Part shown: piece after piece, positions 8,207-19,375 of the stretch | Numbering within the stretch: position 1 is the stretch's first letter | Layout of the letters: each line of letters starts with the position of its first letter | From: Brachybacterium squillarum M-6-3 | Lineage (GTDB): Bacteria > Actinomycetota > Actinomycetes > Actinomycetales > Dermabacteraceae | DNA length: 64,000 nucleotides | Direction of reading: 5' to 3' | NCBI RefSeq assembly: GCF_000225825.1 | Contig: NZ_AGBX01000006.1 | Span: 124,001 to 188,000 of the forward strand | The notes under the pieces: generated by a model | Told to the model about the DNA's origin: nothing | The model's database searches: none | What the model saw: the letters and a program-made list of their open reading frames with translations, nothing else | Translations under genes and position numbers: made by a program

Positions 8207-8467
8207 AGGGATCCGACGGGAACGGGTGTGGCGTCGACCCCGTGCTCCCCCGGGGAGCCCTCGAGCGCCCGCAGGTCTGCGCCGGGACCGTCGGCCTCGG
8301 CGACGGCCCGTCGAGGGCGCGCAGGGCCACGGAGGCAGCACTGTCCTGCCGACCATCGAGCAGGGGCTGATGCGACAGCGGGGCGACTTGGCGGTCTGGG
8401 TGCCCCGCTGAGGGGACCATCGGCCGCCAGCGGGTAGCGCAACTCGCACGGTCCTGGATCGGTACGC
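8207..8467. other. Intergenic stretch left of the transposon
   Basis: No credible gene is visible. Open frames here are high-GC artefacts without motifs. It separates the leaderless promoter at 8201-8206 from the transposon end at 8468. It does not contain the missing thioredoxin half of the nhaA gene found at the other side of the island. Confidence 0.5.
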
Positions 8468-8519
8468 TGTGGCTTCGTTCGCTTGGTGGCGGGGTTTTTG
8501 CAGCGCTCCGTGGCGGTCT
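8468..8519 (+). repeat. Left end of transposon (52 bp)
   Basis: It begins TGTGGCTTCG and matches the end at 17576 at 40 of 52 positions by hand alignment. It holds two direct copies of CGCT-n3-TGGCGG, 24 bp apart, likely transposase-binding sites. Confidence 0.7.
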
Positions 8520-8617
8520 TGTTGCCGCGATCACGCAGGACTGGCTGCAGGTAGGTGTCGCGGTCTGAACCGAGAGGGGTGCGCCCGGTCGGGGCCGTTT
8601 GGATCGCTGCCGCTACG

Positions 8618-9220
8618 TCAGAGTCCGAAGGCTCCGCCGCTGACGAGGATCACGATGCCGAGGCCGATGAGAACGATGGGGAAGAGGATGTGCTCCCAGC
8701 GTTCGAGCACTTCGGCGATCGGGGGGCGGGTGGCGACGAACTTTGCCAGGGCCACCAGGACCGCGACGAGCGCGAGGAAGACTATGCAGTAGGCGACTGC
8801 TGCGAGAGGTTCCACGCTGAGGAAGACAGGGGTGTAGACGCCGATGTTGTCGCCGCCGTTGGCAAGGGTGACGCCTGCGACGGTCCACACGCCGACCTTC
8901 TTGCCGGCAACCTTGGCCTCGTCGTCATCGTCGTCATCGTCTCCGCGCCAGGCCTGCCATGCGGCCCAGAGGCCGAGGCCCAGAGGGATGAGACCGAAGT
9001 ACGGGATGGCTGTCGAGGGCAGGAATGCTCCGGCGCCGATGGTCACCAGGACCGCGGTACCGAGGATGCCGGCGAATCCGAGGTACTGGCCGGCCAGAAT
9101 GCGGGCGGTAGTGCCGCGCTGGCCTGCCCCTCGCGCGAAGAAGAGGGAGAGCACGATGATGTCGTCGATGTTGGTCGCTGCGAACAGGCCCATCGCCTGC
9201 AAGACCGAGGTGAGGATCAT
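8618..9220 (-). CDS. cadD: CadD-family cadmium resistance transporter
   Basis: A 200-residue integral membrane protein. It starts MILTSVLQAMGLFAATNIDD; the N-[IL]-D-D motif after the first helix and the later LANGGDNIGVYTPVF are characteristic of the CadD family, which exports Cd(II) in staphylococci and other Gram-positives. Five to six hydrophobic segments are visible, and the size is normal for the family. The loop near residue 95 has a run of seven Asp (GDDDDDDDEAK), an unusual acidic cluster. The start ATG overlaps the cmtR stop (ATGA at 9217-9220), so it is the second gene of a cmtR-cadD operon. Confidence 0.85.
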   Translation of the reverse strand: MILTSVLQAMGLFAATNIDDIIVLSLFFARGAGQRGTTARILAGQYLGFAGILGTAVLVTIGAGAFLPSTAIPYFGLIPLGLGLWAAWQAWRGDDDDDDDEAKVAGKKVGVWTVAGVTLANGGDNIGVYTPVFLSVEPLAAVAYCIVFLALVAVLVALAKFVATRPPIAEVLERWEHILFPIVLIGLGIVILVSGGAFGL

Positions 9221-9576
9221 GCGCCCTCCCCAGCTGCGTCGCATCCGGGAAGCGAGCAGGCGGGATCGATGCACGGGGCGTCTTCGTCCACTGCCAGGGT
9301 GGCATCGACCAGTGCCGTCAGCGCCTGCGCCAGGTGCGAATCGGCGATCTCATATCGTGTCCGACGACCCTCGGGCTCGGAGACGACGATCCCGCAATTG
9401 CGCAGGCATGCCAGGTGGTTGGACACGTTCGGGCGTGTCAGGTCCAGATCTCGGGCCAGTTCCGCCGGGTAAGCGGGATGGTCGAGCAGGGTCAAGATGA
9501 TCCGGGATCGAGTGGGGTCGGCCAGTGCACGACCCAGGCGGTTCATCACGTCGAGACGCGAAGCAATAGTCAGCAT
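9217..9576 (-). CDS. cmtR: ArsR/SmtB-family metal-sensing repressor, CmtR-like
   Basis: A 119-residue winged-helix repressor. LGRALADPTRSRIILTLL and YPAELARDLDLTRPNVSNHL are the ArsR helix-turn-helix, followed by the wing EPEGRRTRYEI. The Cys residue in HLACLRNCGIVV lies where mycobacterial CmtR binds Cd/Pb, and the C-terminal tail carries further Cys (APCIDPACSLPGC). The protein should repress cadD until Cd(II) or Pb(II) binds. The start was set at 9576, because a -10 box lies 7 nt upstream and the longer frame has no start signal. It overlaps cadD by 4 nt. Confidence 0.85.
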   Translation of the reverse strand: MLTIASRLDVMNRLGRALADPTRSRIILTLLDHPAYPAELARDLDLTRPNVSNHLACLRNCGIVVSEPEGRRTRYEIADSHLAQALTALVDATLAVDEDAPCIDPACSLPGCDAAGEGA

Positions 9577-9583
9577 GAACTGA

Positions 9584-9589
9584 ACTATA
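9584..9589 (-). promoter_or_regulatory. -10 box (TATAGT) of the leaderless cmtR-cadD operon
   Basis: The minus strand reads TATAGT, 7 nt before ATG 9576. A weak -35 (TGACCG, 9613-9608) is 18 nt further. GTTCA repeats around 9577-9604 are a possible CmtR operator. Confidence 0.5.
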
Positions 9590-9648
9590 CAGCGCGCACT
9601 GAACACTCGGTCACAGGCGTCAGCCCAGATCGCATGCCCGTAAGGGGA

Positions 9649-9746
9649 ACCCTCACCGGACACCACCGCTACTGATCGAGAGGAACGACGGCACGCCTGG
9701 TGGGCTGTCCCGTAAGACCCGTCCGGTGAACTGTCCGGTGAAGGGA
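9649..9746. repeat. Inverted repeat upstream of resolvase, candidate res site
   Basis: TCACCGGACA (9653-9662) is perfectly complementary to TGTCCGGTGA (9732-9741), and a direct copy GTCCGGTGAA lies at 9721-9730. Repeated subsites next to a resolvase gene are the usual layout of a res site and autoregulatory operator. The crossover dinucleotide cannot be named from sequence alone. Confidence 0.4.
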
Positions 9747-9769
9747 GGCTATATGACACACTGGGGAGC

Positions 9770-10366
9770 ATGTCCCCCTTGAAGGTCGGCTATGCCCGAG
9801 TCTCCACCGACGAGCAGGACCTGACCGCGCAGCGTGACGGACTCGCGGCGTTCGGCGTCGATCCCAAGCGCATCTACGTCGATCACGGGCTCACGGGCCG
9901 CAACGCCGACCGTGAGGGCCTGCGGCAGGCGCTGGCTGCCTGTCGGGACGGCGATACGTTCGTGGTCACCAAGCTCGATCGGCTGGCGCGTTCAGTCCGT
10001 GATGCCCACCAGATCGCCGACGACCTCGCGGCGCGGGAAGTGAAGCTGAGCATCGCCGGATCGGTGTACGACCCGACCGACCCGATGGGGAAACTGTTGT
10101 TCAACGTGCTGGCGATGGTCGCCGAGTTCGAAGCCGACCTCATCCGTGCCCGCACCCGCGAGGGGATGAAGGTCGCCAAGGCCAAGGGCCGGCTGCGCGG
10201 GAAGTCACCGAAACTCACCCCCCGGCAAGAAGCTCACCTCGTCCAGCTACATGCTGCCGACGAGCACACCGTGGGCGAGCTGGCCGAGCTGTTCAGCGTG
10301 GGCCGCTCCACGGTCTACCGCGCCCTTCAGCGCGCCGAGCGCGGGCGCGAGAACGCCTTGCAGTAG
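9770..10366 (+). CDS. Serine resolvase (TniR/Tn3-type)
   Basis: A 198-residue recombinase. The catalytic N-terminal domain has YARVSTDEQD (nucleophilic Ser at about residue 11), QRDGLAAFGV, VTKLDRLARSVRD and GKLLFNVLAMVAEFEADLIR. The C-terminal Hin-type helix-turn-helix ends with VGELAELFSVGRSTVYRALQ. GGGGAG precedes the ATG. Such enzymes resolve the cointegrates made by replicative transposition at a res site, probably the repeats just upstream. The transposase gene follows within 8 nt, giving the R-A-B gene order of Tn552-like elements. Confidence 0.9.
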   Translation: MSPLKVGYARVSTDEQDLTAQRDGLAAFGVDPKRIYVDHGLTGRNADREGLRQALAACRDGDTFVVTKLDRLARSVRDAHQIADDLAAREVKLSIAGSVYDPTDPMGKLLFNVLAMVAEFEADLIRARTREGMKVAKAKGRLRGKSPKLTPRQEAHLVQLHAADEHTVGELAELFSVGRSTVYRALQRAERGRENALQ

Positions 10367-10373
10367 GTGCGTC

Positions 10374-11771
10374 GTGGACGCTCGAGCGCGGTGGCGAATC
10401 CTCAGGCTCCACGTCGAGGACCAGGTGCCCCTCGCGCGCTTAGCTCGCGAGACCGATGTAGGGCTGCGGACCCTGGAGCGCTGGCACGCCCGCTACCGCG
10501 CCGACGGCTACGCCGGACTGGAGACAGCCTCACGGGCGGACGCCGGCTCCCGCCGCCTTCCGCCCGACCTCGTCGACCTGATCGAGGGCCTGGCACTGAG
10601 CAAGCCGCGGCCGGCCATCGCCACGATCCATCGCAAAGTCACGGGCATCTGCGCCGCCCGGAGGTGGCCGGTCCCCTCCTACTCGGTGGTGTGGGACATC
10701 GTGCGGACCCTGGATCCCGGCATGGTCACCCTCGCCCTGGAGGGCGCAGCGTCCTACCGCGACAAGCACGAGCTGGTGCTACGCCGGCAAGCAGAGCTGC
10801 CCAACGCGATGTGGCAATCCGATCACACCATGCTCGACATCCTGGTGGTGGGCACCGACGGCAAGCCCGCACGGCCATGGCTGACAACGATCCTCGACGA
10901 CTGCTCCCGCGCGATCTGCGGCTACACCGTCTTCCTGGGCGCACCGTCGGCGATGAACACCGCCCTGGCGCTGCGCCAAGCGATCTGGCACAAGACCGAC
11001 CCGGCCTGGCCGATGTGCGGCCTGCCCGACGTGCTCTACGTCGACCACGGCAGCGACTTCACCAGTGACCAGCTCGCCCACACCGCCGTCGACCTCCACA
11101 TCCGACTGATCCACTCCACCGTCGCCCGACCCCAGGGACGGGGCAAGATCGAACGGTTCTTCGACACCATCAACACCGAGCTACTCGCCACCCTGCCCGG
11201 ACTCATCACCGAAGGGCACCCCTGGCCGACACCGAAACTGTCCCTGGCCGCCCTCGATAGCGCCCTGGAGGCGTTCGTGGCCACCTACAACGACCGCACG
11301 CACAGCGAGCTCGGAACCTCCCCGCGCAGCGCGTGGATCGCCGATGGCTGGCTGCCCCGAATGCCCGAGAGCCTGGAAGACCTCGACAGACTGCTGTTAA
11401 CCGTCGCCAAGACCCGCGTCGTGCGCCGCGATGGCATCCGCTTCCAGGGCCTGCGCTACGTCTCCCCAACGCTGGCCGGCTACGTCGGACGCTCGGTCGT
11501 GATCCGCTACGACCCCCGCGACATCACCGAGATCCGCGTCTTCGATCACGACGAATTCGTCTGCAAGGCAGTCAACCAAGAGCACCACGACCAGAAGGTC
11601 AGCCTCAAGGAGATCCAGGCCGCGCGCAACGCCCGCCGCCGGGCGCTGCGAGCCGGCATCAACGAACGCATCGCCCTCGTGGCCGCACCTACCGAGACGC
11701 CACGGATCACCGAAGCACCGGCTCCGGCGCCGAGGTCAGCGTTGAAGATCTACAAGGAGGACCTCAGGTGA
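10374..11771 (+). CDS. tniA: DDE transposase of the TniA/Tn552 p480 type
   Basis: A 465-residue protein. The N-terminal helix-turn-helix region (VPLARLARETDVGLRTLERW) precedes an integrase core with the DDE residues visible as QSDHTM (Asp), YVDHGSDF (Asp) and GKIERFFDT (Glu). A Mu-transposase C-terminal beta domain with RDGIRFQGLRYVSPTLAGYVG follows. This is the retroviral-integrase-type transposase used by Tn552, Tn5053 and Tn7 TnsB relatives. GTG 10374 is the first usable start after the resolvase stop. The stop overlaps the next gene's GTG (GTGA), so translation of the AAA+ partner is coupled. Confidence 0.85.
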   Translation: MDARARWRILRLHVEDQVPLARLARETDVGLRTLERWHARYRADGYAGLETASRADAGSRRLPPDLVDLIEGLALSKPRPAIATIHRKVTGICAARRWPVPSYSVVWDIVRTLDPGMVTLALEGAASYRDKHELVLRRQAELPNAMWQSDHTMLDILVVGTDGKPARPWLTTILDDCSRAICGYTVFLGAPSAMNTALALRQAIWHKTDPAWPMCGLPDVLYVDHGSDFTSDQLAHTAVDLHIRLIHSTVARPQGRGKIERFFDTINTELLATLPGLITEGHPWPTPKLSLAALDSALEAFVATYNDRTHSELGTSPRSAWIADGWLPRMPESLEDLDRLLLTVAKTRVVRRDGIRFQGLRYVSPTLAGYVGRSVVIRYDPRDITEIRVFDHDEFVCKAVNQEHHDQKVSLKEIQAARNARRRALRAGINERIALVAAPTETPRITEAPAPAPRSALKIYKEDLR

Positions 11772-12586
11772 GCCAGCGCTTCATCGTCACCAAGGAGCAC
11801 CGCCGCTTCACCGAGTTCGCCGACGCCGTGCGCCGCGGGCACACCATCGGTTTGTGCTTCGGATCAGCCGGCGTAGGAAAGACACTCTCCGCACGCCGCT
11901 ACGCACACTACGAGAAGGCTCATGACCTGCTGACCTACTGGGGGCCGCGCGCCGACAACGACGCCAAGATCTACGCCGCCTTGAACCGGAGCCGCACCGT
12001 GCTCTACACCCCCAGCGTGCTGACCACCCCGCGGACCCTGAAGGACGAGCTGACCCAAGCCATCACCCGCACCAACATGTGCATCGAGCAGCACCTCGTA
12101 CCTCCCGGCACGGCCACTCCCGAGGCCTGGGGATGGCGACACGGCAGGAACTACGTGGAGCTGATCATCGTCGACGAGGCCGAACGACTGCGTCCCGCCG
12201 CGCTGGAACTGCTGCGCGATCGCTACGACCGCGACGGCATCGCCCTGATCCTGATCGGCATGCCCGGCCTGGAGAAGCAGTTCAGCCACTACCCCCAGTT
12301 CTACAGCCGAGTCGGCTTCGCCCACCAGTACCGGCCCCTGGGACAAGACGAACTGCTGTTCGTCCTCGAGCGACACTGGCGATCCCTCGGCAAGACCCTC
12401 GACCCCGACGACTTCACCGACGCCCAAGCCATCGCAGCCATCGCACGGATCACCCGCGGCAACTTCCGGCTCCTCGAACGCCTCTTCCCCCAGATCCAGC
12501 GGGCCCTGAAGATCAACGAACTCGACACCATCACCAACGACGTCATCGAAGCCGCACAGAGCACCCTGGTCATCGGTGTCACCTGA
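11768..12586 (+). CDS. tniB: AAA+ transposition ATPase, TniB/p271 type
   Basis: A 272-residue ATPase. Walker A GSAGVGKTLSA is at about residues 35-45 and Walker B ELIIVDEAERL at about residues 133-143. It also has the sensor-type ALILIGMPGLEKQF and a lid segment ARITRGNFRLLERLFPQI. Proteins of the TniB/TnsC/IstB-like AAA+ group select the target DNA and activate the DDE transposase. The GTG start overlaps the transposase stop. The gene ends at the inner edge of the 52-bp terminal repeat (12586-12637), which makes this unit look structurally complete. Confidence 0.85.
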   Translation: MSQRFIVTKEHRRFTEFADAVRRGHTIGLCFGSAGVGKTLSARRYAHYEKAHDLLTYWGPRADNDAKIYAALNRSRTVLYTPSVLTTPRTLKDELTQAITRTNMCIEQHLVPPGTATPEAWGWRHGRNYVELIIVDEAERLRPAALELLRDRYDRDGIALILIGMPGLEKQFSHYPQFYSRVGFAHQYRPLGQDELLFVLERHWRSLGKTLDPDDFTDAQAIAAIARITRGNFRLLERLFPQIQRALKINELDTITNDVIEAAQSTLVIGVT

Positions 12587-12637
12587 CCCCGCCATGAAGC
12601 GACCGAAGAACCCCGCCATTCAGCAGACGAAGTCACA
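12586..12637 (-). repeat. Internal right-end copy of the transposon terminal repeat
   Basis: Read on the minus strand from 12637 it begins TGTGACTTCG and agrees with the copy at 17525-17576 at 45 of 52 positions by hand alignment. It has the same two spaced TGGCGG repeats. It cuts an IS3-family orfA immediately to its right. Confidence 0.7.
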
Positions 12638-12867
12638 CCGTCAGCCGCGGTCTTCTTCCCACTCCCGTGGGTCTCGAGCCACTGTCGCAGCGTGCCTCGG
12701 ACGATCCCGAGGTCCTCCGCGATACCGCGGAGCGTCGCTCCCGGTGTCGACTCGTACAGGTCAACCGCCTGCTGGCGAAACTCTTCGGAGTAGTTCTTCC
12801 TGGCCATGGTTCATGATCTCGCTTCCCCAGCAGATGCTGGAATCAGCGTGTCCACGAACAAGGGTCA
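12638..12867 (-). mobile_element. Left-end remnant of an IS3-family insertion sequence
   Basis: The ATG at 12807 begins MARKNYSEEFRQQAVDLYE, then GATLRGIAEDLGIVRGTLRQ W: the OrfA helix-turn-helix of IS3-family transposases. After GSGKKTAADG the frame enters the Tn552-like end, so only about 55 residues remain. The IS left end is probably the TGACCCTTGTTCGTGGACAC stretch ending at 12867 (minus strand). Everything beyond orfA's first third is gone, so the remnant is inert. It is evidence that the Tn552-like unit inserted into, or recombined with, an IS3 copy. Confidence 0.7.
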
Positions 12868-12975
12868 GGCCCCCACCACCACCGGCGAGTTTTCTCAACG
12901 CCACCCTGAACCGGCCCAACCACACAGCGAGGATTCAGCCTCCGTGCCGCCACAGCTACCGGCGAGATGAGGTCG

Positions 12976-12979
12976 GCGC
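12976..12979. repeat. Target site duplication GCGC, left of IS21 element
   Basis: GCGC directly abuts the IS end TGATGACGCTC at 12980 and is repeated at 15309-15312 directly after the other end. Four base pairs fits the IS21 family. Confidence 0.6.
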
Positions 12980-13116
12980 TGATGACGCTCGCTGAACTTC
13001 CCCACTTCTGCTCATCGAATTTCCCCAGTCTGGGTCGCTCCGTCGCATGAGGCGGGCCGCCCTGGATGCTGGTGGTCTCTGACCACTCACCAGCCTTCCA
13101 GGGAGGCCCTACGCTC

Positions 13117-14445
13117 ATGCTCTCAGAGAGGAGCAGCGTGGATATCCACGCTCTACGCCGGCAGGGATTCACGATCAGTGAGATCGCCCGACGCACCGGC
13201 CACGACCGCAAGACCATCCGTTCCTACCTCCGCGGCGACCGCGAACCGGGCGTGCGCCGGCGCGCCGTCCCGGACGTGTTCGAGCCGTTCACTGACTACG
13301 TCACCGCGCGGCTGATCGAGGACCCTCACCTCTGGGCGGTGACCCTGCTGGACGAGCTGCGCCCGCTGGGCTTCGAGGGCTCGTATCAGACGCTCACCAG
13401 GCACATTCGTGACCGGTCATTGCGGCCGGCCTGCCAGGCCTGCGCCCACGTGACCCGCCGGCCGAACGCGGTGATCGAGCACCCACCCGGGGAGGAGACC
13501 CAGTTCGACTGGCTCGAGCTGCCCGATGCGCCCGGCCACTGGGGCTATCCGACCAAAAGAGCGTTCGTGCTGGTCGGCTCGCTCGCCCACTCCGGTGTCT
13601 GGCGGGCCGCGATCGCTCCCTCGATGGACCTGCCCCATCTGCTGGCCGCGATGACGACCGTCCTTGCCCTGCTGGGCGGGCTGACACGCACCTGGCGGTT
13701 CGATCGGATGCGGACCGTGCTGGACCCTGCCACCGGAGACCTGACCGCGATGTTCTCCGCGTTCGCGAAGCATTACGGAGTCCGGGCCGTGGTCTGTCGG
13801 CCCCGCTCCGGGAACCGTAAGGGCGTGGTGGAGAAGAACAACCACACCGCCGCCCAACGCTGGTGGCGGACCCTGCCCGACGAGACCACCGCCGAGCAGG
13901 CCCAGGCCTCGCTCGAGACCTTCGCCGCCCGGCAGGACGGGCGCCGCCGCGAGAGCCCGACCGGAACTACGACGGCCCTCCAGATGCGGGCCACAGAGCG
14001 GCTCCGACCGCTGCCGTCGATCGCGTTCCCGGTGGTGGTGACCGAGCAGCGGACCGTCTCGCGGCAAGCGTTGATCCACTGGCGCGGCAACCGCTACTCC
14101 GTCCCGCCCGAGCTGGCGATGGCCACCGTGAATGTTCACCAGCCCCTCGGCGCGGACCACATCGAGATCGCCACCACCTCCGGCGCCATGCTCGCCCGCC
14201 ACCAGCTGGCCGAGGCCGGCCTCGGGATCACCCAGCGCACCGACCAGCACGTCACCGCGCTCGAGTCGATCGCTCTGGCCTCCGCCCCACCGGGCCGGCC
14301 TCACCGCCGCAAGGAACGCATCCCACCCGGGGCTGCGTCCCTGGCCGCGGCACAGGCCCTGACCGGGTCGCCCGCACCGACTGCGACCGTGATCGACCTG
14401 GCCGCCTATGAGCAGGCCGCGAAGAACAGGAACACCCTCACATGA
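13117..14445 (+). CDS. istA: IS21-family transposase IstA
   Basis: A 442-residue protein. The N-terminal helix-turn-helix is VDIHALRRQGFTISEIARRT, followed by TGHDRKTIRSYL. The integrase core shows EETQFDWLEL (first Asp), the WRFDRM region (second Asp) and GNRKGVVEKNNH (Glu). The C-terminal part has RGNRYSVPPELA. GGGAGG lies ahead of ATG 13117; an upstream in-frame ATG lacks a ribosome-binding site. It catalyses strand transfer of the IS21 element. It overlaps istB by 4 nt (ATGA). Confidence 0.88.
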   Translation: MLSERSSVDIHALRRQGFTISEIARRTGHDRKTIRSYLRGDREPGVRRRAVPDVFEPFTDYVTARLIEDPHLWAVTLLDELRPLGFEGSYQTLTRHIRDRSLRPACQACAHVTRRPNAVIEHPPGEETQFDWLELPDAPGHWGYPTKRAFVLVGSLAHSGVWRAAIAPSMDLPHLLAAMTTVLALLGGLTRTWRFDRMRTVLDPATGDLTAMFSAFAKHYGVRAVVCRPRSGNRKGVVEKNNHTAAQRWWRTLPDETTAEQAQASLETFAARQDGRRRESPTGTTTALQMRATERLRPLPSIAFPVVVTEQRTVSRQALIHWRGNRYSVPPELAMATVNVHQPLGADHIEIATTSGAMLARHQLAEAGLGITQRTDQHVTALESIALASAPPGRPHRRKERIPPGAASLAAAQALTGSPAPTATVIDLAAYEQAAKNRNTLT

Positions 14446-15245
14446 CCACCACACCCACTACCGCGAGCGCCTATCAGCAGCTTCGCGGCCACCTGACCGA
14501 GCTGAAGCTGGCCGACGCCGCCGAGGCTCTCCCCGGCATCCTTGACCAGGCACAGGCAGAGGACTGGACCCTCACAGGCGCCCTGGAGCGCCTGCTGGCC
14601 ATCGAGGTCTCCGCCACCGAGAAACGGCGCCTCGCGGGCCGGTTCCGGTTCGCGAACCTACCCAACGGCGCCACTTTGGAGAACTTCGACCATGACGCCG
14701 CTTCCGGCATCGACCCCAGCCTGCTCACGGAGTTGGGGACCTGCCGGTTCCTCGAGAACGCGACGAACGTGCTGCTCATCGGCCCTCCCGGAGTGGGCAA
14801 GACCCACATCGCCACCGGCCTCGGCCACGCCGCAGTCAACGCCGGCTACCGGGTCTACTTCACCTCAGCTGCGGACCTCGCCGCCCGCTGCCACCGCGCC
14901 GCGATCGAGGGCAAGTGGTCCACCATGATGCGGTTCTTCGCCGGCCCCACCCTGCTGATCATCGACGAGCTCGGCTACCTGCCGCTGCCCGCCGAAGCAG
15001 CATCAGCCCTGTTCCAAGTCATCAACCAGCGCTACCTGAAGACCTCGATCGTGATCACCACGAACAGACCCGTCGGCGCCTGGGGCGAGATCCTCGGCGA
15101 CACCACCGTCGCCGCCGCCATGCTCGACCGGCTCCTCCACCGCTCCGTCGTGGTCACCCTCGACGGCGCGTCCTACCGACTCCGCAACCACCACGCCGCC
15201 GCCGAAGAAATCCGCCGCGCCACGACCGGCACGAACCTCGGCTAA
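14442..15245 (+). CDS. istB: IS21-family helper ATPase IstB
   Basis: A 267-residue AAA+ protein. It has the typical IstB N-terminal helical region LADAAEALPGILDQA, Walker A LLIGPPGVGKTHIA at about residues 108-121, Walker B LLIIDELGYLPL at about residues 170-181, and VITTNRPVGAWGEI with the AAMLDRLLHRSVVV lid. IstB assembles on DNA and selects the target for IstA. The start overlaps the istA stop. It ends 63 nt before the right end of the IS. Confidence 0.9.
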   Translation: MTTTPTTASAYQQLRGHLTELKLADAAEALPGILDQAQAEDWTLTGALERLLAIEVSATEKRRLAGRFRFANLPNGATLENFDHDAASGIDPSLLTELGTCRFLENATNVLLIGPPGVGKTHIATGLGHAAVNAGYRVYFTSAADLAARCHRAAIEGKWSTMMRFFAGPTLLIIDELGYLPLPAEAASALFQVINQRYLKTSIVITTNRPVGAWGEILGDTTVAAAMLDRLLHRSVVVTLDGASYRLRNHHAAAEEIRRATTGTNLG

Positions 15246-15308
15246 CCTAACCCCGCGACCCGGGGAAGTTCACCGAGCAACTCTGGGGAAAATCGATGAG
15301 CGCCATCA

Positions 15309-15312
15309 GCGC
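15309..15312. repeat. Target site duplication GCGC, right of IS21 element
   Basis: This is the second copy of the 4-bp GCGC, immediately after the IS right end at 15308. Confidence 0.6.
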
Positions 15313-15451
15313 GGCGTGCTCCGGTCACTGCCAGGACGATGGCGGCGATAGTGAGCACGGCGGCGGTGCCGGTGAAAACACCGCGCCGAGACCGGCTACA
15401 CCGAAGGCCAGCAGCAAGGGTGCCCGATGCAGAACAGGCGCACTGCTGCAC
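15309..15451 (-). pseudogene. Small membrane protein remnant split by the IS21 element
   Basis: On the minus strand the stretch encodes GVFTGTAAVLTIAAIVLAVT as one hydrophobic span. Removing the IS and one GCGC joins it to codons ending RAPTSSRR and a stop at 12958-12956. Immediately upstream another frame reads LLLAFGVAGLGAVF, which would give a second helix if one base in the TTTT run is altered. The result would be a two-helix protein directly downstream of merA. It may be part of a mercury-uptake or related membrane function, but I do not recognise the family. Confidence 0.35.
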
Positions 15452-15522
15452 CAGTACCGAGGACCAGGCGTCCCCGGCGCTCCGGCCCGGGCCTCGGATT
15501 GGGCCAGTGGATACGAGGGATC

Positions 15523-16926
15523 TCAGGCGCAGCAGGACGTCGGCATCTGGTTGCGGAAGAGGCCGGCGACGATGCGCAGACTCTCCGCCATGGTCAGGTA
15601 CGGCGCCCAGGTGTCGGCCAGATCATCAACGGTCATGCCGGCCTTGATGGCGTAGGTGGCCGCCAGCATGATCTCCCCGGCGCCGTCGGCCAGAGCGTGC
15701 ACGCCCAGCACCTTGCCGGTCGTGGCGTCAACTACGAGCTTCACCGCGCCCCTGGTGTCGTGCTGGACCAACGCCCGAGGGACGTCGGATAGGCCCAGGA
15801 CCCGGCAGTCGCACACGTACCCGCGGGCGAGGGCCTCGTCCTCTGTCAGCCCTGCCGAGGCCAGCTGGGGCCTGGTGAACACGACCGCAGGCAGACCGGT
15901 GTAGTCCACGCGTGCGGGCGTGGCCCGACCGTCGTCGGCAAGTGCGTTGAGCGCGGCGGCCCGACCGCCGGCGGCGGCTACGTAGTCGTACTGAGGAGCC
16001 CCCGAGACGTCACCGGCGGCGTAGATGCGCGGGTTGGAGGTGCGCTGGGACTCGTCGACCACGACGAAGCCCCGCTCGTCCACGTCCACCGCGGCAGCGG
16101 CCAGGTCCAGGCCGTCGGTGCGCGCGAAGCGCCCGGTGGCCACCAACAGCCGTGCTCCGCGGACCTGCGCGCCGGAGGCGGTGCTCACCACGACGTCCTG
16201 TCCATGAGGACCGATGCCGGTGGCCACCGCGGTCGCGTGCTCCTCGACCACCGTGATGCCATCGTCGGCGAAAACCTCCCGAAGCCCCTGGGCCAGCTCC
16301 GGCTCGGCGTGGGGCGCCAGACGCCCGACCACCGACACCCGGGCACCGAGGTGGGCGAACAGCTGGGCCTGCTCCATCCCGACATAGCCGCCACCGATGA
16401 CGACCAGGGACTTGGGCAGCTCGGTGAGCTCCATCGCCGTGGTCGAGGTCAGCCAGTCCACGGACTCAAGGCCGGCCACGTCCGGGACGGCGGGGGTGGA
16501 GCCGGTGGCGATCAGGTAGGCCCGGGCCCGCAGCACCGCGCCGTCGACGGCCATGGTGTCCTTGTTCAGGAAGGCGGCCTGGCCCGAGCGGACCTCGAAG
16601 CCGTAGGCGGCGGCTACGTCGGCGTACTTCGCCTCGCGCAGGCTCTCGATCAGGCCATCCTTCTGCGCCACTAGGGCGCCCAGATCCACCGGTCCGGCTG
16701 ACGTCGGGACGCCTGCGAAGGGGTTGGTCAGCGCGGCGTGCCGCGCTCCGGCGGCCGCCAGCAGCGTCTTGGACGGCACACAGCCGATGTTCACGCACGT
16801 GCCGCCGAGGACGCCGCGTTCGATCAACACCACACTCTTGCCGGCCTGGCTGGCCGCGATCGCCGCCGACATGGCCGCGCCTCCTGACCCGATCACGGCC
16901 AAATCGACGTCGTAGTCCTCACCCAT
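15523..16926 (-). CDS. merA: Mercuric reductase-type flavoprotein (MerA)
   Basis: A 467-residue pyridine-nucleotide disulfide oxidoreductase. The FAD site is DVDLAVIGSGGAAMSAAIAA, and the redox-active pair is GGTCVNIGCVPSK. NAD(P)H binding is shown by SLVVIGGGYVGMEQAQ, a second FAD motif by RIYAAGDVSGAP, and a C-terminal CC pair by NQMPTSCCA. The terminal vicinal Cys pair, which hands Hg(II) to the active site, separates MerA from lipoamide dehydrogenase. There is no N-terminal NmerA domain. The start at 16926 is preferred because AAAGGAG lies at correct spacing there; ATG 16935 would touch it. It is controlled by the divergent MerR. Confidence 0.85.
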   Translation of the reverse strand: MGEDYDVDLAVIGSGGAAMSAAIAASQAGKSVVLIERGVLGGTCVNIGCVPSKTLLAAAGARHAALTNPFAGVPTSAGPVDLGALVAQKDGLIESLREAKYADVAAAYGFEVRSGQAAFLNKDTMAVDGAVLRARAYLIATGSTPAVPDVAGLESVDWLTSTTAMELTELPKSLVVIGGGYVGMEQAQLFAHLGARVSVVGRLAPHAEPELAQGLREVFADDGITVVEEHATAVATGIGPHGQDVVVSTASGAQVRGARLLVATGRFARTDGLDLAAAAVDVDERGFVVVDESQRTSNPRIYAAGDVSGAPQYDYVAAAGGRAAALNALADDGRATPARVDYTGLPAVVFTRPQLASAGLTEDEALARGYVCDCRVLGLSDVPRALVQHDTRGAVKLVVDATTGKVLGVHALADGAGEIMLAATYAIKAGMTVDDLADTWAPYLTMAESLRIVAGLFRNQMPTSCCA

Positions 16927-16964
16927 ATCGCACATCTCCTTTGCGTTGCACGTCTCCAGTGACC

Positions 16965-16996
16965 AGAATGGACCTTCCAGTGCAGGGAAAGGTCAA
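16965..16996 (-). promoter_or_regulatory. MerR-type promoter/operator of merA
   Basis: On the minus strand -35 TTGACC (16996-16991) and -10 CATTCT (16970-16965) are 20 bp apart, the long spacer typical of MerR-family targets. The spacer contains the dyad ACCTTCC-n7-GGAAAGGT (16972-16993 on plus). The dyad resembles CueR/ZntR-type operators more than the GTAC-type Hg operator. Confidence 0.6.
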
Positions 16997-17031
16997 GATG
17001 AACGTGGAAGCCGTTCGAGCAAGGAGGCGCC

Positions 17032-17421
17032 GTGCGGATCGGTGAGCTGGCCGAGGCCAGCGGCACCACAACCAAGACGCTGCGCTTCTACGAAGAAGCC
17101 GGGCTGCTGCCCGCACCGGACCGAACCGCCAACGGCTACCGCGACTACGCCGCTGAAGCCCTGGCGCGCCTGGGCTTCATCCGCCGCAGCCGCACCGCTG
17201 GGTTCACTCTGGCCCAAATCCGCGAGGTCCTCGACATCCGCGACGCCGGGGTCGCACCCTGCCGGCACGTGCAAGATCTGCTCGAGACCCGCCTGGACGA
17301 CCTGGACCGCCAAATCGCCGACCTACAGGCACTGCGACACACCGTCGCCCAACTCAGCAACGCTGCCGCCACGGTCGACCCGACCGACTGCGACGCCACG
17401 ACCATCTGCCGCTACCTGTGA
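17032..17421 (+). CDS. merR: MerR-family heavy-metal regulator
   Basis: A 129-residue protein. The helix-turn-helix is MRIGELAEASGTTTKTLRFY, followed by EEAGLLPAP and NGYRDYAAEAL, the classical MerR N-terminus. The long dimerisation helix holds DLLETRLDDLDRQIADLQAL. Cys residues at about 79, 118 and 124 (APCRH, TDCDATTIC) could form the metal site; three Cys per subunit pair is also the pattern in Hg-binding MerR, but the spacing differs. GTG 17032 follows AAGGAG. It is divergent from merA over 105 bp carrying the long-spacer promoter. Whether it senses Hg, Cu or another metal is open. Confidence 0.85.
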   Translation: MRIGELAEASGTTTKTLRFYEEAGLLPAPDRTANGYRDYAAEALARLGFIRRSRTAGFTLAQIREVLDIRDAGVAPCRHVQDLLETRLDDLDRQIADLQALRHTVAQLSNAAATVDPTDCDATTICRYL

Positions 17422-17518
17422 TCCGCACGGTCCCGAACCTGGCTGGCGCAGTGCCCACCGCTTGGTGCCGAACAGCGTCCCGGGGACCGATCGACCCGGC
17501 CCCGCTGGCCATCGCTCG

Positions 17519-18952
17519 TCAGTGAGACCGCCACGAAGCGACCGAAGAACCCCGCCAATTAGCGGACGGAGTCACAACAAGGGTGAGCCGGGCGTCCTCC
17601 GGCCCGCGGATGTGATCCACCTCGGGGTCCACCGGAGAGTCGAGCGTCATCGGGAGATCCGCCGTCTCCTCTCCCCACCGACGGGCCGCGACCTTGAAGA
17701 TCGACCAGCCCAGAACAGTGGCGAGCACCATCGCCACGAGCACGCCCAGCGTCGCCTGGCGCCCCAGATCCGAGGAGGAGTCGAAAGCGAGGCTGATGAC
17801 CAGCAGCGACACGGTGAAACCGATGCCCGAAAGTGCTGCCCCGCCGAACACGCTGCCCATTCCGACCCCCTCCGGCAGTCGGCCTGCGCCCATCCGAACG
17901 GCGAGGAGCGTCGCGATCCCGATTCCGAGGAGCTTGCCGAGCACGAGCCCCGCGATGACGCCCCACGTCACAGGCGAGCTCAGCGAGTCGGCCACCACCC
18001 CGCCGCCCAGGTCGACCCCGGCATTGGCCAGAGCGAAGATCGGCACGACCAGCAACGCCGTGGGGAGACGGAGGTAATCGTGCAATCGCTCGTTGACCGA
18101 CACGCCCTTGGACAGCCCCCGTCCGACGGCACGCGCCGAGGAAGCGCTCGGGGATTGCCAGAAGTCGCGGAACAGCTGACGGGCGGCGACCACCTCGTGC
18201 CGTTGCGTCGGGTAGGCGGGGATCAGAAGGCCGGCGATCATGCCCGTCAGCGAGGCGTGGATGCCGGAGGACAGAGTCGCCACCCACAGCACGATGACGA
18301 TCCCCACGTACGGAGCGGCACTCCACTGCCGGGAACGGCCCACCAGCCACAGGGCGACGAGGCAGCCGAGAGCGACCAGCAGCGGGACGGGCCGGATCTC
18401 GTCGCTGTAGAACACCCCGATGATCGATACCGCAAGGAAGTCGTCGACCACCGTGAGGGTCAGGAGGAAGACGCGAAGCTGCCCGGAAAGCCGGGGGCCG
18501 ACGATCGCGAGAGCACCGAGCATGAACGCCGTGTCCGTTCCGACGACCGCCCCCCACCCGCGAAGCCCCTCGCCACCGGACGCGCCGACGACCAGGACAT
18601 ACACCAGCGCGGGCAACGCCACGCCCGTGAAACCGGCGATCGCTGCCAGGCGTGCGCGACTGCTGTCCCGCAGAGCCCCATACGCAAACTCCTGGCGCAC
18701 CTCGAGACCCACGACGAAGAAGAACACGACCATGAGCCCGTCGTTGATCCAGTGGTGCAGATCCAGGTGCAACCCGAACGGGCCGACGTCGATCCCCACG
18801 CTCTGGTGCCACAACTCGACATAGGAAGAGGACAGCGGCGAGTTCGCCCAGAGGAGAGCGAAGACCGTGACGACGATGAGCAGGACGGCCGAACCCGACT
18901 CCGTGCGGAGTCTTCCGGCTACTCCGCGCGAGGGCGAAGTTGAGTGGGGCAC
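17519..18952 (-). pseudogene. nhaA: NhaA Na+/H+ antiporter, C-terminal thioredoxin domain cut off by transposon
   Basis: About 458 native residues then a tail read from the transposon end. NhaA features: LWANSPLSSSYVELWH, LHHWINDGLMVVFFFVVGLE, GTDTAFMLG, LTVVDDFLAVSIIG with the paired Asp of the ion site, and GSVFGGAALSGIGFTVSLLV. After the last TM helix the sequence DPEVDHIRGPEDARLTLV is the linker and first strand of the DsbA-like thioredoxin domain found in actinobacterial NhaA fusions. At codon 459 it switches to the 52-bp transposon end. The antiporter domain is whole and could still work; the thioredoxin part is lost. Start GTG 18952 is uncertain. Confidence 0.75.
17525..17576 (-). repeat. 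Right end of the mobile island (52 bp)
   Basis: Read on the minus strand from 17576 it begins TGTGACTCCG. It is homologous to the ends at 8468 and 12637. It abuts the broken nhaA codons, so the outermost element inserted there. The flank ACAAG is not found at the left end. Confidence 0.7.
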
Positions 18953-19375
18953 GGCGCGATTCTGCCTGAACGTGCTGGCCGGCGCCACTGGGACGGACCG
19001 GGTCCGATGCCGCTGCTGTTCGGGTCCGAGGGGGTGGACGGGCGGCCGTGGGAGACCGATCCCCAGCTGCGCGCGAGGGCCAGGGGACGCTCCGCCCGGC
19101 CTCAGTTCTCTTCGCGGCGAGCTCGACCCGCGCAACCAGCGATCCTGGCGTTCGGCGACGTGATGAGAGGCGAGGTCTGCGCGGAGCTGCCGGGCCTGGA
19201 GGCGTCGGGCCCGTATCGCAGCCCTCACCGTCATCGATGCCCTGGTCCAAGACGGGATCCGCGATCCAGTCACACCAGTGACAGACCGGTGAGATCACTG
19301 CCACCTCGTCGAGAACCTGCGAATGTGGCCTCCATCACGATCCGCCGTGCCGGGAATGAACCTGACCGGACCAGA
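18953..19375. other. Gene-free stretch between nhaA and the dnaK promoter
   Basis: I find no supportable gene. A short plus-strand frame ending near 19293 (VIDALVQDGIRDPV) has no start or family signature. The stretch is slightly less GC-rich toward the dnaK promoter. Confidence 0.4.

Follow-up and report, generated by a model that had tools for sequence, protein, structure and literature searches.

A Tn552-like cadmium transposon and a mercury half-element with three related ends: a putative composite in Brachybacterium squillarum M-6-3

We analyzed a metal-resistance island in a 64-kb stretch (hereafter, the window) of the genome of Brachybacterium squillarum M-6-3 (3.19 Mb, 8 contigs). The island contains three related 52-bp terminal inverted repeats, designated ends A, B, and C (Table 1). 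The unit from A to B (8468–12637, 4,170 bp) comprises cadD and cmtR on the minus strand, followed by tniR, tniA, and tniB on the plus strand. The mercury half (15313–17576), containing merA, merR, and end C, is inverted relative to A–B and lacks a tni half. The sequence between B and the mer genes consists of approximately 237 bp of an insertion sequence (IS) cut at B, a remainder of approximately 105 bp, and an IS21-type element. A preliminary description, made from the letters alone, had placed cadmium genes in A–B, and cadD (Pfam Cad) and cmtR (NCBIfam equivalog) were indeed found there, with cadD scoring under the NCBIfam cad cut-off (99.5 vs. 181.65 bits). Its larger unit with merA/merR and two IS elements stood for the mer genes, but the IS content proved to be one complete IS21-type element and the 237-bp fragment. 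A domain scan of two minus frames of 12640–17576, the merA frame not among them, was empty.

Table 1. Coordinates of the features of the metal-resistance island and its border in the window
Feature	Positions	Strand	Evidence or remark
Terminal inverted repeat A, cargo-side end of cadmium transposon	8468–8519	+	End alignment, tandem motif; present in 23 of 396 genomes from the order
cadD, cadmium resistance transporter	8618–9274	-	Pfam Cad 7e-30
cmtR, Cd/Pb-sensing ArsR-type repressor	9217–9573	-	NCBIfam CmtR equivalog, over cut-off
Putative res site I, 28-bp imperfect dyad, cargo-switch point	9635–9662	+	Putative site assignment
res-region stretch, insertion zone for other transposons in relatives	9678–9707	none	
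tniR, serine resolvase	9770–10366	+	Pfam Resolvase 3e-42; 37% to staphylococcal recombinase
tniA, DDE transposase	10374–11771	+	Mu-transpos_C, rve; type V-K CRISPR-associated transposon (CAST) TnsB 2e-42; 42.6% to staphylococcal TniA
tniB, AAA+ ATPase	11768–12586	+	AAA_22; ShTnsC E=0.0012; 40.6% to staphylococcal AAA protein
Terminal inverted repeat B, tni-side end	12586–12637	-	End alignment, tandem motif
IS fragment, start of transposase gene, truncated at end B	12638–12874	-	Matches in 12 of 58 genomes searched
IS21-type element	12980–15308	+	istA 13117–14445, istB 14442–15245
merA, mercuric reductase	15523–16935	-	TIGR02053, over cut-off
MerR-family regulator	17032–17421	+	Pfam MerR_1, MerR-DNA-bind; below every NCBIfam equivalog cut-off
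Terminal inverted repeat C, cargo-side end of mercury half	17525–17576	-	End alignment, tandem motif
nhaA, cut by end C	17577–19273	-	Antiporter domain kept

Alignment of the ends over 52 bp (A from 8468 on the plus strand, B from 12637 and C from 17576 on the minus strand) gave 40 identities for A/C, 45 for B/C, and 37 for A/B, the first two numbers agreeing with an earlier count by hand. The next-best match to any end in the window was 30/52, and end B reached at best 32/52 in 60 control scans, which covered the two strands of 30 Markov-shuffled versions of the window. All three ends start with TGTG and carry the motif [CT]GCT-N3-TGGCGG at positions 13 and 37, in agreement with the two direct repeats 24 bp apart that had been described; the six occurrences of this motif in the 64 kb all lie in the ends. 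The tandem motifs in ends A and B look like TniA-binding sites. Across the B. squillarum genome, a 32-base end pattern allowing up to three mismatches matched the three ends and no fourth place. The possibility that the ends belong to a dispersed chromosomal repeat was rejected, as there are three in the genome and they border tni genes in many loci.

A scan of GTDB genomes yielded 57 loci; the query peptides served as probes, so that close relatives were favored. TniA proteins with at least 97% identity (97–99%, best segment) were encoded in loci of 19 named genera: Demequina, Microbacterium, Nesterenkonia, Agrococcus, Kribbia, Hoyosella, Actinomyces, Cellulomonas, Brachybacterium, Nocardioides, Kocuria, Helcobacillus, Brevibacterium, Enemella, Kytococcus, Microcella, Kineosphaera, Gulosibacter, and Ornithinimicrobium (partial TniA). 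Another partial TniA was found in Propioniferax. A 97% TniA fragment was also present on a 4.1-kb contig (L053) of a metagenome-assembled genome labelled Dehalococcoidia, perhaps through a binning error. The part common to the loci was the tni half; the exact 4,170-bp A–B unit occurred in 5 of the 57 (L011, L012, L014, L015, and L048), and the others varied in length or cargo. End A was detected in 23 of 396 genomes and 13 of 110 genera of the order (up to three mismatches over 39 bases, own genome included). Megablast matched the island to 75 plasmid records, none of which covered 80% of it in one place.

Exact target duplications of 6–10 bp flanked 14 of 22 A–B pairs, as against 6 of 1,190 mismatched flank pairings that reached at least 5 bp. 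Thirteen of these pairs came from a tabulation of 21; the remaining one, L050, fell below the end threshold there, and its 9-bp duplication was added from a separate reading. The early proposal of a mobile element was right, in its Tn552/Tn5053/Tn7-type ends as well as in its TniA/TniB and its cadmium genes, and other copies with duplications exist as it anticipated, at lengths of 6–10 bp rather than 5 bp. A–B alone is a complete autonomous Tn552-like cadmium transposon, and its movement as a unit is well supported by the compared sequences. An 11,154-bp derivative (L149 and L150), which by the gene content read in L149 contains two cadmium modules, mer, and tni, occurs in two genera (Kribbia and Helcobacillus) with different 8-bp duplications.

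The origin of end C was indicated by L047 of Actinomyces oris, which consists of a C-type end (44/52), merR, merA, tniR, a tniA with an internal deletion, tniB, and an end of type B, flanked by a 9-bp duplication. The C-type end stands on the cargo side of this mer–tni element, and C is therefore the cargo-side end of a mercury relative. Together with merA/merR, C is what remains here of a second, sister mercury transposon whose res–tni half and second end were lost. When the mer half was searched for a site I of res, the pattern matched once, at the 5-mismatch limit and with no second arm in the stretch read, and this was taken as none.

Three loci combined C-type ends with the cadmium transposon in different ways. 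In L011 of Actinomyces provencensis, the mer–IS sequence was 99.7–100% identical to that of the window and free of IS21, and it was joined to end A instead of B, 50 bp further into the IS; C and B were flanked by an 8-bp duplication that enclosed A–B. L027 contained a C-like end (44/52), 1.6 kb in which a Pfam scan detected a regulator domain and an AHSA1 domain, and A–B closed by a B-type end; here too, an 8-bp duplication enclosed the outer pair. The A–B pairs of these two loci had no duplication of their own. In L062, an Ornithinimicrobium plasmid (the same place as L055), A, the cadmium genes, tniR, and a partial tniA were joined to mer–C without IS21, the stretch from tniA to near mer, including B, being deleted; no duplication was found around A–C. 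This plasmid was the single one of 4,102 matching plasmid records that matched the mer half at 99% or more. Each of the pairings A–B, C–B, and A–C was thus observed at the outer borders of some copy, and A–B and C–B also with duplications. The suggestion that the same transposase could mobilize either A–B or A–C was right in that the ends occur paired in more than one way; A–C forms the outer edges in L055/L062, and its mobility as a unit is plausible. Alternative end pairing is supported by these loci.

The IS fragment between the halves (approximately 237 bp, 12638 to approximately 12874) matched sequences in 12 of the 58 genomes searched, own genome included; its sole hidden Markov model match was a weak one to IS66-type TnpA, and we tentatively read it as IS3-type. 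The IS21-type element is flanked by a 4-bp duplication, GCGC (12976–12979 and 15309–15312), and has a second identical copy in the same genome (G000:C1:156845–159173). A joining of unrelated halves by IS21 was rejected, since in L011 the IS–mer sequence runs on unbroken with no IS21, as does part of it in L062.

Next to the island, A and C abut the chromosome exactly, with flanks that end at 8467 and resume at 17577. Empty sites, whose existence had been proposed as a check, were found in two relatives (L108 and L109) that match the flanks to 8467 and from 17577 and carry 8,837 and 8,838 bp between them. Three others (L110, L111, and L112) also run uninterrupted through 17577. Two genomes of the same genus (G027 and G011) match the nhaA flank at 97%, and searches of the genomes from which L028 (Brachybacterium sp. 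EE-P12) and L050 (B. paraconglomeratum) come led to the same places, consistent with a Brachybacterium host. The 8.8-kb segment of L108 encodes a DJ-1/PfpI protein, a UvrA-like protein, an alcohol dehydrogenase, an OMPdecase/HUMPS-family protein, a SIS-domain protein, a LuxR-type regulator, and, from an NhaA fusion, the thioredoxin/DsbA portion; the nhaA product of the window lacks this C-terminal domain. Translocation of the segment was rejected, because its best match in the B. squillarum genome was only 77%, over the UvrA-like part; the segment was therefore lost rather than moved. The presence of 8.8 kb between the junctions in relatives and its absence here at orthologous identity indicate that a deletion accompanied the insertion.

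We consider that these features are best explained jointly, with a probability of roughly 0.8, by an autonomous Tn552-like A–B transposon and a mercury half-element that form a composite with three possible ends and replaced approximately 8.8 kb. TniA and its AAA+ partner TniB would act on ends A and B, and movement would most likely be replicative, via a cointegrate resolved by TniR, because the three plus frames of A–B showed no TnsA or TniQ domain and a serine resolvase and a res-like region lie beside tniA. The cadmium transposon most likely landed in the IS beside the mer genes and joined both, giving a composite with three possible ends whose outer edges in B. squillarum are A and C. The insertion or a later rearrangement, most likely an adjacent-deletion-type intramolecular transposition, would have removed the host DNA without leaving a matching duplication, and loss flush with both ends in the absence of a duplication fits such an event. 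The first interpretation needs changing on these points: A–B alone is a widespread transposon, C comes from a second one, and 8.8 kb of chromosome was replaced.

Several observations weigh against this explanation. No target duplication flanks A–C or A–B in the window, nor A–C in L062, which makes A–C a plausible rather than an established transposing unit. Eight of the 22 A–B pairs had no duplication (L011, L012, L015, L027, L036 with an altered left end, L051, L061, and L152). The tniA of L047 is internally deleted, and no complete element combining the mer sequence of the window with its own tni half was found. A search of the B. squillarum genome for TniQ was empty, but its control was silent too, so that absence of TniQ from the genome cannot be shown. 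A flush loss without duplication would also fit two separate insertions, of the cadmium transposon at 8467 and of a mercury one at 17577. Recombination between them, homologous or by TniR at res, would then have taken out the intervening 8.8 kb, and A and C would never have paired. The missing segment and the unmatched flanks are equally expected from this course, and related transposons have tni sequence in common through which they could recombine. However, the same A...C order in the unrelated plasmid L062 would require the course twice or inheritance as a unit, the mer half is inverted relative to A–B, and no site-I-like sequence was found beside it; we regard this history as rather unlikely.

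It is less probable still that only A–B is mobile and that C and the mer genes are passive remains. The scarcity of end C, found in 2 of 396 genomes of the order (up to three mismatches over 35 bases, own genome included) versus 23 of 396 for end A, would agree with such a state, but the exact 8-bp duplications at C–B in L011 and L027 enclose A–B, and in the window, L011, and L062 alike C coincides exactly with an outer edge. That the junctions were created by misassembly at repeats, as the second copy of IS21 might suggest, is hardly credible: each end is single-copy in the genome, and L011 and L062 are continuous across the IS21 site without the IS, which shows that both IS sides belong together.

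Beyond the composite itself, the loci differed in the region upstream of tniR. A 28-bp imperfect dyad, TGCCCGTAAGGGGA/ACCCTCACCGGACA (core AA at 9648–9649), is a putative resolvase site I by its position, symmetry, and coincidence with cargo switches, in which TniR would have a putative role. The region was readable with a window probe in 36 of the 57 loci (21 unreadable): 17 resembled the window, 9 switched at the dyad, 9 were interrupted at approximately 9672–9708, and 1 reached a contig end. In the cleanest switch, L027, the dyad separates a left side of 99–100% identity from a right side of 81–92%. Serine recombinases require identical core dinucleotides. Among 40 distinct A-bearing insertions, the right arm of site I differed in 10 of 12 with an AT core and in 2 of 28 others, one of the latter (L128) being hardly site-like. 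A core mismatch might spare stacked cargo from resolution. Kholodii reportedly spoke of a "shuffling function of resolvases."

Copies of the res region also served as landing sites, with four insertions flanked by exact duplications. Two are Tn5053-type elements, in L154 (GAGAG, 9678–9682) and L155/L049 (GAGGA, 9680–9684), and two are Tn552-like, in L153 (AGGAACGAC, 9681–9689) and L021 (GGCGGGCTG, 9699–9707). The element of L154 (1397–16476, Hoyosella), with its 5-bp duplication in res, encodes TniA, TniB, TniQ, and a resolvase. In L152, 53 bp of res from another copy (92%) directly precede end A. The sides of the internal insertions of L151, L152, and L156 gave no clean duplication. Insertions that destroy tniA would escape the locus search, and a preference for res is not quantifiable from these loci.

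Smaller elements were found as well. L125 and L144, of 1,382 bp and the same at 1372 of 1382 positions, contain end A, the cadmium genes, and a different other end, and sit in two genomes with 8- and 7-bp duplications. L159 (1,934 bp) has a 66% identical TniR and a 10-bp duplication; of its interrupted relatives, L161 has a 4-bp duplication and L158 and L160 have none. These 1.4–1.9-kb tni-less elements need TniA/TniB from elsewhere, which supports mobilization in trans, and L125, L144, and L159 are candidates for it. A broader and more tentative proposal, which we do not favor at present, is that the ends are freely exchangeable: TniA/TniB would move A–B, C–B, and left–left pairs (A–C), and tni-less elements in trans, with duplications of 6–10 bp, and cargo would be swapped at the site I core, with left halves circulating over shared tni halves. 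If so, a pool of left halves, each with an end, metal genes, and half of site I, circulates across actinobacteria. The small metal-resistance transposon identified here has tni genes that are near-identical across many actinobacterial genera, and the natural cases (A–B, C–B, A–C, non-autonomous copies of 1.4–1.9 kb, and switches at the putative res site I) provide material for testing directly the rules by which ends pair and cargo is exchanged among replicative transposons of the TnsB type.

Comparison with known systems placed A–B among transposons with TnsB-type transposases. TniA matched the TnsB of type V-K CAST (2e-42), and acidic residues that we take to be the catalytic ones align within the conserved blocks; TniB weakly matched TnsC (E=0.0012). 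Unlike these systems, no Cas or TniQ was among the identified genes, CRISPR arrays not having been searched for. In the best 45 of 4,915 plasmid records, relatives from Paenarthrobacter (TniA 82%) and Sphingobium sp. CFD-1 (50.7%), compared by TniA match only, ranked above the staphylococcal matches. A–B resembles the Tn5053/Tn402 group in having tniA, tniB, res, and tniR and in the mer cargo of its relatives. Copies of its res are targets of several other elements, and one A–B copy (L152) follows a sibling's res segment, which may parallel the use of res regions as targets in that group. Target duplications of 5 bp and targeting of res regions are described for the Tn5053 family (PMC7765201). 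In contrast, A–B showed 6–10-bp duplications in 14 of 22 pairs and none in 8, its TniA was approximately 30% identical to those of the L154 and L155 elements, and neither TniQ nor TnsA domains were found in its three plus frames (minus strand read at cadD/cmtR only), in a scan that did detect TniQ in the L154 element. Two features that define the Tn5053 family, TniQ and the 5-bp duplication, are thus not seen in the frames and pairs of A–B that were read.

By content, A–B appears closest to Tn552 among the named groups. A staphylococcal plasmid set (L157), presumably of Tn552 type by its gene order, shares the order of resolvase, DDE transposase, and AAA protein, with identities of 37%, 42.6%, and 40.6%; by pairwise identity, the transposase is thus nearer to the Tn552 type (42.6%) than to the Tn5053 type (approximately 30%). 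The AAA gene lies downstream and the serine resolvase gene upstream of tniA, with the cargo on the resolvase side and no TniQ in the scanned frames. Target duplications of Tn552 are 6–7 bp long. A–B differs from it in its ends, its host phylum, and its 6–10-bp duplications, and the cargo in this island is cadD/cmtR and merA/merR rather than beta-lactamase genes; A–B is therefore a relative of Tn552, not Tn552. Tn552-II has a blaZ array as cargo and 7-bp target sites (PMC12486829). No description of the element was found by title or abstract opening among the PMC papers searched, TnCentral and ISfinder being outside this search, and A–B adds a new, apparently unnamed element with metal-resistance cargo to the Tn552-like group within the TnsB-type transposons.

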